A stretch of DNA of 64,000 bases from Rhodospirillaceae bacterium SYSU D60007. Lineage in GTDB: Bacteria > Pseudomonadota > Alphaproteobacteria > Reyranellales > Reyranellaceae. The notes under the pieces are model-generated. The model saw nothing but the letters and a program-made list of their open reading frames with translations, did no database searches and was not told the origin of the DNA. Within the stretch, counting starts at the first letter, position 1, and the number at the start of each line of letters is the position of its first letter. The position numbers and the translations under genes are program-made. Location: contig QOCQ01000004.1 in the NCBI GenBank assembly GCA_003574685.1, forward strand, positions 1 through 64,000. The letters run 5' to 3'. This document shows positions 52,914 to 58,382 of the stretch, in pieces.

Positions 52914-54092
52914 CTAGTCCTCGTTGTCCTTCCGGTAGGGCGAGTATTCCATTAACGCGCAGATGTCGGCTTCGACGGCGGGGCGCTCCTCGTCGAGGAA
53001 GCGGCTGACGGCATGACGGAAGCGCGGATCGCGGATCCAGTGCGCCGAGTAGGTCGCGGTCGGCAGATAGCCCCGCTGGATCTTGTGCTCGCCCTGGGCG
53101 CCGGCCTCGACACGCGCCAACTTGTGAACGATCGCGTAGTCGATCGCCTGGTAGTAGCAGGCCTCAAAGTGCAGGAAATTGAAGCTTTGAACGCAGCCCC
53201 AGTTGCGGCCGAAAAGCGCATCGTCTCCGCGCAGATTGAGTGCGCCCGCGACCAGCCGGCCATCGGCTTCGGCGACGATCAGCACCACGCGTTCGGCCAG
53301 CGAGGCGCCCAGGCAATGGAAGAAATCGCGGTTGAGATAGGGGCTGCCCCACTTGCGGTCGGCGGTATCCATGTAGAACCGGAAGAACGCATCCCAGTGG
53401 CTGGCCGTTATCTCGGCGCCGGTAAGGGGATAGAGACGCAAGCCGTCGCGTGCCAGCGATGCGCGCTCCTTGCGGATCGCCTTGCGTTTGCGCGAGTTCA
53501 GTGAGGCAAGGAACCCGTCGAAGTTCTCATAGCCGTGGTTGTACCAGTGGTACTGCCGGCCAAGCCGCCGCAGGAAGCCGTGTTCGGCGAGCCGTTGCCA
53601 CTGCGATTGCGGGCAGTAGGTGACGTGGATGGACGAGATCCGGTTGTCCTCGGCGATCCTTACCATCCCATGGACGAGGGCGTCGAAGACGCCGTCCGCC
53701 AGCGGTCCCGGCTGCAGCAGAATGCGCGGACCGGGTACCGGCGTGAACGGCGCCGCCACCTGCAGCTTGGGATAGTAGCGGCCGCCCGCGCGTTCCAGCG
53801 CATGTGCCCAACCGTGATCGAATACGTACTCGCCCTGCGAATGGCTCTTGAGAAACATGGGCGCGATGCCGCGCACGACATCGCCTTCGTCGGTGGCGAT
53901 GAGATACTGCGGCTGCCATCCCGTACGCCGGCCAAGGCAGCGGCTGTCTTCCAGCGCCTTCAGGAAGGCGTGGCTGAGAAACGGATTGCCGGCAGCCTCG
54001 GGCGAGAGGGCGCAGGCGTCCCACTGGGAAGCCGGCACCTTGCCGACACTGTCCACAATCCGCAGCTCGAGGCGCGTCTCCTGTCCGTCCAT
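52914..54092 (-). CDS. FemAB-like / GNAT-fold acyltransferase (PF04339 type)
   Basis: A 392-residue protein of the bacterial 'peptidoglycan biosynthesis/recognition' or DUF482 type. Blocks are WDACALSPEAAGNPFLSHAF, YYPKLQVAAPFTPVPGPRIL, LNSRKRKAIRKERASLA and YLPTATYSAHWIRDPRFRHA. Family members are large double-GNAT folds with no settled function in proteobacteria. It is convergent with the DUF2007 gene, ending 16 bp away. Confidence 0.82.
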   Translation of the reverse strand: MDGQETRLELRIVDSVGKVPASQWDACALSPEAAGNPFLSHAFLKALEDSRCLGRRTGWQPQYLIATDEGDVVRGIAPMFLKSHSQGEYVFDHGWAHALERAGGRYYPKLQVAAPFTPVPGPRILLQPGPLADGVFDALVHGMVRIAEDNRISSIHVTYCPQSQWQRLAEHGFLRRLGRQYHWYNHGYENFDGFLASLNSRKRKAIRKERASLARDGLRLYPLTGAEITASHWDAFFRFYMDTADRKWGSPYLNRDFFHCLGASLAERVVLIVAEADGRLVAGALNLRGDDALFGRNWGCVQSFNFLHFEACYYQAIDYAIVHKLARVEAGAQGEHKIQRGYLPTATYSAHWIRDPRFRHAVSRFLDEERPAVEADICALMEYSPYRKDNED

Positions 54093-54490
54093 GCGCTCGG
54101 CTTTCCTGTCGTGATGATCGCGCCTGGATCAGCCTACACAGGCTTGCCGCAAATGCCACTGCGCACGTCTGCATGCCAGCCCGATATGCCCGGGATGGCA
54201 CGACAAGGACTGGTTCATATTGGGAAAAGGAAGACGGATCGGCGCCGGCCTGGGGAACATGCGGCATTCCGGTGGTCGGCCGGTTCAGCCGCAGCCGGCG
54301 TCGGGATGGGGAAGGGGGCGTCGGTGGCCCCACGGTCGCCGGCTACATTGACTACATGCATTCTAGGCTGTGCAAGGCACCGTGCGCAGATCCGTCGTCT
54401 GGAGGTCGCTTCCGATCCGGCGCAGAAACGCCGGACCGGAAGCCGGATTGGCATCAGTTAGAGGGGCCAATCTCGAGTAGCCCTGAGGCC
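54093..54490. other. Intergenic stretch without recognisable gene
   Basis: About 400 bp between the FemAB-like gene's start and the lysine-rich mini-gene's stop. Open frames here have no recognisable homology and no convincing ribosome-binding site. It should contain the minus-strand promoter of the FemAB-like gene, but I could not assign one. Only weak GC-rich stems are visible. Confidence 0.5.
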
Positions 54491-54559
54491 TTACTTCTTC
54501 TTCTTCGCGGCCTTCTTCTTTGCCGGGGCCTTCTTGGCGGCTTTCTTCTTCGCAGCCAT
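54491..54559 (-). CDS. 22-residue Lys/Ala-rich peptide (histone H1-tail-like)
   Basis: ATG 54559 to TAA 54491 on the minus strand encodes MAAKKKAAKKAPAKKKAAKK ending KK, composed almost only of Lys, Ala and one Pro. A near-perfect ribosome-binding site AAGGAG lies 7 bp upstream, in a minus-strand context that would be hard to get by chance. It is 115 bp downstream of nrdJ on the same strand. Short Lys/Ala/Pro-rich proteins like H1 tails bind DNA in several bacteria, often as part of larger histone-like proteins; this one is much shorter. Role inferred, existence moderately supported. Confidence 0.6.
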   Translation of the reverse strand: MAAKKKAAKKAPAKKKAAKKKK

Positions 54560-54674
54560 GATGAGTCTCCTTGGTTTCACGTGGGATCCCGACCGCCGGA
54601 CCCCGGTTTGACGCCTGGAACGATACGCCACCACGCCTACTGAATCGCCACGCGGTAAGCCACGCGGGTCGCGT

Positions 54675-57600
54675 TCAACTGCACCCGCTCGTCGAACCAC
54701 AGGTCGTGCACTTCAGGCACGTTCCGTTGCGGACGAGGGTGAAGTTGCCGCATTCGGTACACGCGTCACCCTCGAAGCCCTTGAGCCGGGCCTCGCGGAC
54801 CTGCTCGAGCCGGTCGGTGACGGCGTGGGCCGCCGCGGCGCTGAGGACGACCGCCCGGCCGCCAGCGGCGGCGCGAGCGACGGTCTGGCCGTCCATCAGT
54901 TCGGGGGGCGTCGCTGCCGCGGCCGCGACGATAGTCGCATTGCCGTTGGCGGCTGCTTCGGTGCCGGCCTCCTGGCCGGCGCCACGCCCGCTGAGTACAT
55001 AAAGATTGCTGCGTACGAATCCGACGCTGGTCAGGGAGCTGACGGCAGGCGCCGGGGGGTCACCGCTCAACACTGCCTGGGCTTCGCCACCGCCGACGGC
55101 ATCGGCGCGCAGATCGCCGGGCTGGACGTGCGCGAGGTCGGTCCGTCCAAGGTAGGACACAGCCAGCTCGCGGAAAATGTAGTCCAGCACAGACGTCGCC
55201 ATCTTGATCGCGTCGTTGCCCTCCACCATGCCCGATGGCTCGAAGCGCGTGAAGGTGAAGGCCTCCACGAACTCTTCCAGCGGCACGCCGTACTGCAGGC
55301 CGATCGAGATCGCGATCGCGAAGTTGTTCATCAGGCTGCGGAAGGCGGCGCCCTCCTTGTGCATGTCAATGAACACCTCGCCCAGCCGGCCCTCGGCGTA
55401 TTCGCCGGTCCGCAGGTAAACCTTGTGGCCGCCGACGATGGCCTTCTGCGTATAGCCCTTCCGGCGCTGCGGCAGGCGCTGCCTGCGGCCCGAGACTTCC
55501 CGCTCGACGATCCGCTCGACAATGCGTTCTGCAATGATGCCGGCTTGCTGTACGGGAGTCCTCGCTGCCAGTGAATCCATATCGTCGGCAGAGTCATCGT
55601 CGGGCAGGACCATCGCGGCCAGCGGCTGCGACAGCTTGGAGCCGTCGCGGTAGAGAGCGGTCGCCTTCAAACCCAGCTTCCATGACATCTCGTAGGCCCG
55701 GATGCAATCCTCGACCGATGCCGCATTGGGCATGTTGATCGTCTTGGAGATCGCGCCGGTAATGAAGGGCTGGGCCGCAGCCATCATCCGGATGTGCGCC
55801 TCCATCGAGAGATGGCGCTTGCCGTCGCGTCCGCACGGCGTGGCACAGTCAAATACCGGCAGGTGTTCCGGCTTGAGGCCCGGTGCGCCCTCAAGCGTCA
55901 TGGCGCCACATACATGTCTGTTGGCGGCGTCGATCTGTGCCCGGCTGAATCCGAGATGGATCAGGATATCGAACTTCGGATCAGCGAGTTGCGCCTCGGT
56001 GAGTCCCAGTCGCTCGCGGCAGAACTCGTCACCCAGCGTCCACCGGTTAAAGGCAAAGCGCAAATCGAACGCCTGGGCAACGGCCTTCTCGAGCCGCGCA
56101 AGAGTGGCGTTATCGAAGCCTTTGGTGCGCAATGTCTCAATATTGATCGCCGGCGCATCGACCAGGGAACCGCGGCCTACGGCGTATGCGACAATCGCCG
56201 CGATCGTGGCCTCGTCGTAGCCAAGCCGCGCGAGCGCCGCGGGAACCGACTGGTTGACGATCCGGAAGTAACCACCGCCAGACAGCTTCTTGAACTTCAC
56301 GAGGGCAAAGTCGGGCTCGATTCCGGTGGTGTCGCAATCCATCACCAGGCCAATCGTGCCGGTTGGCGCGATCACCGATACCTGGGCGTTGCGATAACCA
56401 TGCTTTTCGCCGAGCGCCAGTGCGCGATCCCATGCCTGCGCTGCCGCCTCGGCCAGGCGGCGATCGGGGCAGTGCGCGCGATCGAGTGGCACCGGTGAGG
56501 TCGACAGGCGCTCATAGCCGGAAGCCTGCCCGTATGCTGCCCGCCGATGATTGCGGATGACGCGCAGCATGGCATCGCGGTTGGCCGGGAAGCCCGGAAA
56601 CACGCCGAGTTCCTTCGCCATCTCGGCCGAGGTGGCATAGGCAACGCCGGTCATGATCGCCGTGATGGCGGCACAGGCAGCATGGCCTTCGTCACTGTCG
56701 TAGGCCACGCCGTCTGACATCAGCAGCGCGCCGAGATTGGCAAAGCCCAGCCCAAGCGTCCGGTATTCATGGCTCAGCTTTGCGATCCGGGCTGACGGAT
56801 ACTGGGCCATCAGAACAGAGACTTCGAGCACGATCGTCCACAGCCGGCAGGCATGCTCGAAGCCTTGTATGTCAAAGACGGCATCGACCGGCCGAAAGCG
56901 CAGCAGGTTCAGCGACGCCAGATTGCAGGCCGTGTCGTCGAGGAACATGTACTCGGAGCACGGATTGGACGCGTTGATCCGTCCCGATTCCGGACACGTG
57001 TGCCAGTCGTTGATCGTGGTATCGAACTGCACGCCTGGATCAGCGCATGCCCACGCGGCGTAGCCGACGCGTTCCCACAGCTCGCGCGCCCTGAGTGTGC
57101 GCGCCACGCCACCGGATGTGCGCCAGATCAGATCCCAGTTCCGGTCCTCGGCCACGGCGCGCAGGAACGCGTCCGTGACGCGCACCGAATTGTTGGCGTT
57201 CTGGCCCGAGACGGTGCCGTAGGCTTCCGACTCCCAGTCCGTGTCGTAGACAGGGAATTCGATGTGCCGATAACCCTGGCGCGCGAAGGCGATGACACGC
57301 TGGATATAGTTCTCGGGAATCATCGCCTTGCGGGCCGCCACGATCTCGCGGCGCAGGGCAAGGTTGCGTGCCGGATCGAAGGCTGCTTCGCCCTCACAGC
57401 CGGCCGTGCAGGCCCGCATGATGGCGTTCAGATGCCGGTTGGCCAGTCGTGAACCGGCAACCAGCGCGGCGACCTTCTGCTCCTCGATCACCTTCCAGTC
57501 GATGAAGGCCTCGATATCGGGATGATCAACATCGACGACGACCATCTTGGCCGCCCGCCGCGTCGTGCCACCCGACTTGATAGCCCCGGCGGCGCGATCG

Positions 57601-58382
57601 CCGATTTTCAGAAAGCTCATCAGGCCGGAGGATTTGCCGCCGCCCGATAGCTTCTCGCCCAGCCCGCGGATGCGCGAGAAATTGCTGCCGGTGCCGGAGC
57701 CGTATTTGAACAGCCGCGTCTCACGCAGCCACAGGTCCATGATGCCGCCGTCGCCGACCAGGTCATCGGCGACGCCCTGGATGAAACAGGCATGCGGCTG
57801 CGGACGTGCGTAGGCGGAGTCGCTGCGCGTCAGGTCACCGGTGCGATAGTCGACGTAGTAGTGGCCCTGGCCGGGGCCATCTATGCCGTACGCCCAGTGC
57901 AGGCCGGTGTTGAACCACTGCGGCGAGTTCGGGGCCGCTATCTGCGCGGCCAGCATGAAGCAGAGCTCGTCATGGAAGGCGCGTGCATCCGCCTCGCCAT
58001 CGAAGTAGCCGCCTTTCCATCCCCAGTAAGCCCACGTGCCGGCGAGGCGATGGAAGACCTGCCGCGAGTCGTTTTCGCCGCCGAAGCGCGCGTCGGGCGG
58101 CAGCGCCGCCAGCGCTTCATCGTCGGCCTCGTGCTTCCACAGCCAGACTGGCACGTCCTCTTCGGGCACGGCACGCAACGCCGCCGGCACGCCGGCGCGA
58201 CGGAAATACTTCTGCGCGAGCACGTCGCAGGCGACCTGCGACCAGTCGCTCGGGACATGGATGCCACTCTGGTGGAAGATGACCGAACCGTCGGGGTTGC
58301 GGATTTCCGACGTAGCCGAACGGAATGCCAGCCGCTCGTAGGGCGACTCGCCTTCACGTGTATAGCGACGCTGGATTCGCAT
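54675..58382 (-). CDS. nrdJ: Cobalamin-dependent (class II) ribonucleotide reductase
   Basis: A 1235-residue NrdJ that reduces ribonucleotides to deoxyribonucleotides using adenosylcobalamin, so it needs no oxygen. Catalytic-site motifs are [20 protein letters not shown] and [20 protein letters not shown]; the start [20 protein letters not shown] is family-typical. The C-terminus holds a zinc-ribbon-like segment ([20 protein letters not shown] then CGSTSGCS), matching the cysteines used for redox relay. No cobalamin riboswitch was recognised in the leader. An inverted repeat lies 91 bp upstream. Confidence 0.96.

Follow-up and report, generated by a model that had tools for sequence, protein, structure and literature searches.

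Background

AlgP of Pseudomonas, a protein of about 350 residues for which a truncation of residues 157 to 352 has been described, is reported to associate with polyphosphate granules, and KPAA peptides from its tail bind DNA in vitro (PMC9239181). For the Chlamydia protein Hc2, pentamers are described (PMC2848022). VcdRP of Vibrio cholerae is presented as a dual-function RNA that encodes VcdP, a protein of 29 aa (PMC8672173).

The window analysed here is a stretch of 64 kb, on the minus strand of which a preliminary description had pointed out an "H1-tail-like" mini-gene downstream of nrdJ. Genes of 18-22 codons fall below usual annotation reporting. Within the open-licence PMC literature, as represented by titles and the starts of abstracts, we found no publication on this mini-gene or on the structured RNA that follows it.

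Results

The mini-gene occupies 54491..54559 (-) and runs from an ATG at 54559-54557 to a TAA at 54493-54491, giving 22 codons plus the stop, with a Shine-Dalgarno (SD) sequence, AAGGAG, at 54567..54572 (-), 7 nt 5' of the ATG. A spacer of 115 nt (54560..54674, (-)) separates this ATG from the stop codon of the constant upstream neighbour, nrdJ (54675..58382, (-)), which we take to encode a class II (B12-dependent) ribonucleotide reductase, and whose product has a Cys-rich C-terminus. The product of the mini-gene in the window, MAAKKKAAKKAPAKKKAAKKKK, has 22 aa, comprising 12 Lys, 8 Ala and 1 Pro, with 0 acidic residues; its length, Lys/Ala composition with a single Pro, SD placement and stop were all confirmed in the sequence as the preliminary description had given them. 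The 64 kb window contains 438 ATG open reading frames (ORFs) with 15-40 codons; a Lys content of at least 25% occurs in just 2 of them, and the mini-gene alone among these two also had GGAG at the right SD distance. A longer in-frame protein (a 69-aa GTG ORF in the window) was rejected, as an in-frame stop lies between nrdJ and the ATG at 59 of the 61 loci compared, the two loci that lack it being those of the window genome (G000, 5.3 Mb) and G003.

We compared this locus across the order, here the Vineibacter/Reyranella group (76 genomes), of which Vineibacter is placed at NCBI as Hyphomicrobiales incertae sedis. The gene nrdJ was present in 97 of the 101 genomes searched. The preliminary description had named a lack of conservation in close relatives as evidence against the mini-gene and had proposed a search beside nrdJ in such relatives; this search located a mini-ORF 76-115 nt 3' of nrdJ in each of the 61 order genomes whose nrdJ 3' end was readable (60 from family f1 and one, G061, from a sister family), and likewise in 12 of 12 further genomes checked that had a recognised nrdJ C-terminus. 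Counting these 12, nrdJ is followed by the mini-gene in 73 of the 74 order genomes that are readable here. A pattern combining the SD with the ORF start matched 73 of the 76 order genomes and 51 of the 51 good-quality ones; the misses were G058 and G451, assemblies that lack the nrdJ 3' end, and G445, a draft assembly with 8% contamination, in which a deletion that starts inside the nrdJ C-terminus and reaches halfway into the RNA region takes the nrdJ end with it. At the G445 locus (L256), nrdJ passes from RNGTCLK straight into 3' RNA sequence, through either deletion or misassembly.

At the 61 loci, the mini-gene has 18 codons (n = 51), 20 (n = 1), 21 (n = 4) or 22 (n = 5), every copy opens with MAAKKK, and a GGAG-type SD lies 6-8 nt 5' of the ATG in 61 of 61. 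The peptides hold 10-12 Lys and 4-8 Ala per 18-22 residues, with an acidic residue in 1 of 61 only; that of G061 reads MAAKKKAAKKKATKKAAKKKKM. These comparisons strongly support the view that the mini-gene is a real, conserved small protein gene, and the earlier suggestion that it had been missed for its size gains equally strong support from its conservation, its invariable SD and the signs of selection described below.

Outside the order, the 16 class-level genomes in which the NrdJ C-terminus was recognised all lacked a mini-ORF within 1.4 kb behind nrdJ. Among 80 named nrdJ loci examined, 61 had a recognised C-terminus, namely 4 of Reyranella/Vineibacter type, all with the mini-ORF, and 57 others, none of which had it in the following 1.4 kb or as far as the contig ran. 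One of these 57 (L132) carries a Lys/Ala ORF of 44 codons 993 nt downstream of nrdJ.

Within the gene, the 51 18-codon copies hold 14 variant alleles in codons 2-17, of which 11 are synonymous, compared with a synonymous expectation without selection of 0.19-0.33 (P = 3e-6 to 7e-4 depending on transition bias, values that are indicative rather than exact because the copies are related). Codon 18, which lay outside that test, shows five more variant alleles, all non-synonymous; judged from these alleles, the last residue of the 18-codon peptide is free to vary. Across all 61 loci, the further codon types in codons 2-11 comprise 14 synonymous and 3 non-synonymous ones. We read these patterns as signs of selection on the predicted mini-peptide. 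Within Reyranella, mean majority conservation was 0.91 in the spacer versus 0.97 in the ORF, and because the spacer is nearly as conserved as the ORF, conservation within the genus alone is no proof of coding; the SD and the ORF are singled out by the comparison across genera and by that with G061.

Codon choice was unusual for Ala, for which GCT accounts for 90% of codons in the 51 18-codon mini-genes versus 6% in the nrdJ genes of these genomes, with 13-31% in the gene for ribosomal protein L12 (read in 4 of the 7 loci searched) and 16% in second-locus paralogues. Such a bias may point to some constraint besides the peptide itself. High-expression codon bias is insufficient as its full cause, given 13-31% in L12 versus 90% here, and the need to keep the ORF or the SD open was not supported as its cause, since in the five 18-codon rows analysed 58 to 100 of 100 sampled versions equalled or exceeded the native ORF in openness.

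A conserved structured RNA, which the preliminary description had not mentioned, follows the mini-gene. In Reyranella-type genomes it extends over about 160 nt directly after the mini-gene stop codon. Its parts are hairpin A, the stretch CCTCTAAC, and hairpins C and D, which are enclosed by a closing helix, CGCCTTTC/GAAAGGCG; CCTCTAAC is kept at 46 of 61 loci, with close variants in 5 more. In an alignment of 49 rows (2 of 51 left out), from which the structure was itself derived, 97.7% of pair cells pair, and 19 of the 43 RNA pairs show both-sided changes, a number matched by 0 of 500 shuffles; pairing drops to 40-61% when the structure is slid along the alignment. The predicted structure is thus supported by covariation, the closing helix CGCCTTTC/GAAAGGCG being less tested as it hardly varies. 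Nine Vineibacter/g5/g2 rows share a CCCCTCTAAC core and hairpin C, and have an alternative hairpin, GATTGGC/GCCAATC, with an invariant stem. In the window, the hairpin GATTGGC...GCCAATC with the conserved CCCCTCTAAC core lies at 54446..54472 (-), and the long hairpin C (GGCTTCC...GGAAGC), which shows compensatory changes, at 54408..54444 (-).

A covariance model of the RNA (R1), built from A2 rows only, matched 57 of 61 f1 genomes, each of them once, and none of 40 others. The window match (54381..54498, (-)) overlaps the end of the mini-gene and was the single match in a whole-genome search (E 0.0017); a smaller search placed the match of the three other Vineibacter genomes at the same position, and the eight R1-matching genomes outside the alignment have their match immediately 3' of the mini-ORF. 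In the sister-family genome G061 the ORF is kept and the R1 RNA is absent by the model. An Rfam search of the region returned no family at gathering score and only chance-level matches (E 0.49 or worse), and a described RNA family was accordingly rejected as the identity of the RNA. By these searches, the candidate is a new, previously unlisted, single-copy structured RNA.

The gene that follows in the window encodes a FemAB_like protein (PF04339; 52914..54092, (-)), and other genes take this place in most relatives. FemAB_like is downstream at 23 of 61 mini-ORF loci, one of them being that of G061, where just its first part is found, behind other ORFs; the other next genes include those for a TetR-type regulator (L015) and a phosphotransferase-like protein (L028), both named by eye and not by profile. 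A motif search found no CoA-transferase as next gene, the FemAB pattern in the same search caught only 17 of 61 loci, and a stop-to-stop listing of downstream genes was uninformative at the GC content here. As the next gene varies, the mini-gene belongs with nrdJ. A leader peptide for the next gene was rejected on account of this varying neighbour and of a terminator that intervenes in most Reyranella; a leader or attenuator would precede one and the same regulated gene from relative to relative, which the mini-gene does not.

Positions 54000-54800 of the window showed no promoter-like site and the (-) strand of the spacer (54560..54674) no terminator-like site, and a TTTT run is absent from 60 of 61 spacers. 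With no promoter-like site and spacers free of TTTT, co-transcription with nrdJ would be the simplest reading. Downstream, an intrinsic terminator lies within 420 nt in 48 of 61 loci (shuffled control, 2 of 61); 47 of these 48 belong to the 51 loci with 18 codons, and the window genome and most non-Reyranella rows yielded no terminator.

Elsewhere in the class, a pattern match picked up Lys/Ala genes at other loci whose start equals or resembles that of the mini-gene (17 of 385 genomes, 4 of them from f1), some being only 21-22 codons long (L090, L097). Some Reyranella carry a second MAAKKK-type gene of 44-103 aa (L093, L095, L101, L223, L227, L229; about base 1510), flanked where read by selD-like and OsmC-like genes (named by eye). 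In 6 of 6 cases read, residue 7 (A or V) is shared by this second-locus gene and its nrdJ-side counterpart in the same genome, which suggests exchange between the two. In G004 (L074 151-1, (-)), a second Lys/Ala gene, truncated by the end of the contig after at least 50 codons, lies behind the unit and shares its GGAGCAAGACC start region. Lys/Ala tails occur elsewhere in the window genome. Its contig C40 (L194 1363-1716, (+)) holds a 117-aa ORF with a Lys/Ala-rich second half, a longer H1-like candidate, and Lys/Ala C-terminal tails were seen on RidA-like and carboxymuconolactone-decarboxylase-like proteins, named by eye (L197 2294-1485, (-), and L002 805-1569, (+)).

Discussion

On balance, our results tilt towards a reading in which the nrdJ transcript ends in a module composed of a translated Lys/Ala polycation micro-peptide and a folded RNA. 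Here, nrdJ and the mini-gene would be transcribed together, the SD-led ORF of 18-22 codons would be translated into a Lys/Ala polycation, and the folded RNA after the ORF would be followed, in most Reyranella, by an intrinsic terminator. The peptide, which has no signal sequence, would stay in the cytoplasm, where its charge could let it bind DNA, RNA and possibly polyphosphate, acting as a free-standing H1-type tail produced along with NrdJ, while the RNA may stabilise or process the 3' end or be the effector itself. Binding of nucleic acid (or polyphosphate) by charge, in the manner of an isolated histone-H1-type tail, is probable in the light of the composition (+10 to +12 from Lys) and of the DNA binding reported for AlgP-type peptides (PMC9239181); composition does not tell DNA, RNA, polyphosphate and membrane binding apart. 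The polycation might even bind the folded RNA of its own transcript, giving a micro-ribonucleoprotein unit at the nrdJ 3' end. We regard this as improbable, but if true, such a unit would couple NrdJ expression, and with it dNTP supply, to a complex of peptide and RNA whose target is the nucleoid, polyphosphate or the nrdJ mRNA itself.

The same features may also be read as a dual-function RNA, in which mini-ORF and structured RNA act together as a single regulatory unit, arising from the nrdJ 3' end or from its own promoter, with the RNA base-pairing (e.g., via CCCCTCTAAC) or binding its own encoded peptide. The SD-led short ORF with signs of selection on its peptide and the conserved RNA structure beside it (in family f1 only) are both as such an RNA would have them, the two are co-conserved with the RNA in single copy, and the retention of CCTCTAAC and the terminator behind most copies point the same way. 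The window region, however, has no promoter-like site, and G061 keeps the ORF without the R1 RNA (by the model), which indicates that the two can part; we entertain this possibility only tentatively. More doubtful is the idea that the ORF acts only in cis, with ribosomes on it determining how stable the nrdJ 3' end or the following gene is or how it folds, and with no role for the peptide. The position of the ORF directly before the structured RNA and a GCT bias that the peptide does not explain are consistent with it, whereas the peptide composition is kept through lengths of 18, 20, 21 and 22 codons and into another family, and a cis role as leader for the next gene conflicts with the varying neighbour and the intervening terminator. 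That the ORF is a chance product or relic in a conserved 3' untranslated region is strongly disfavoured and would be very surprising: short as it is, and common as Lys/Ala tails are as C-terminal extensions in these genomes, it is retained at nearly all readable loci with an SD in every one of the 61 compared and mostly synonymous changes, and it survives in the sister family despite changed surrounding sequence. The transcript module with a translated peptide thus remains the reading we prefer.

Kept at one address in essentially every member of the order, the mini-gene offers a clean, testable example of an ultrashort polycationic protein. Two further testable ideas come from its constant position between nrdJ, the gene of a DNA-precursor enzyme, and an undescribed structured RNA: H1-type tails may work as free peptides, and the nrdJ end may carry a dual coding/structural module.

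Compared with known systems, the mini-peptide is, like AlgP (AlgR3) of Pseudomonas and the C-terminal domain of PhaF, a Lys/Ala(/Pro)-rich low-complexity polycation, the composition typical of the H1-like family. AlgP, however, combines a helical N-terminal domain with KPAA repeats, and H1-like proteins have a tail of at least 100 residues, usually with a further domain, whereas the mini-peptide has 18-22 residues of AAKKK type and no domain. It matched 0 families in Pfam and NCBIfam and 0 chains in PDB, searches of little power for a 22-aa low-complexity query; the label "H1-tail-like" thus holds for composition and found no counterpart in the profile or structure matches, and membership in the AlgP/Hc2 family is unsupported by length or profile. 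Chlamydia Hc1 and Hc2 share the Lys-rich repeat composition, but Hc2 has 165-237 residues and a repeat unlike that of the mini-peptide, and we know of no link of either protein to nrdJ. Longer MAAKKK-type Lys/Ala proteins of Alphaproteobacteria, including the Reyranella second-locus paralogues, share the MAAKKK N-terminus and the SD, but lie at other loci and not behind nrdJ, reach up to 154 aa and often have RKR-type ends; R1 gave no match at the 18 such loci searched. VcdRP of V. cholerae is comparable in bringing a short ORF and a regulatory RNA together; the nrdJ-side module differs from it in lying at a metabolic gene's 3' end.
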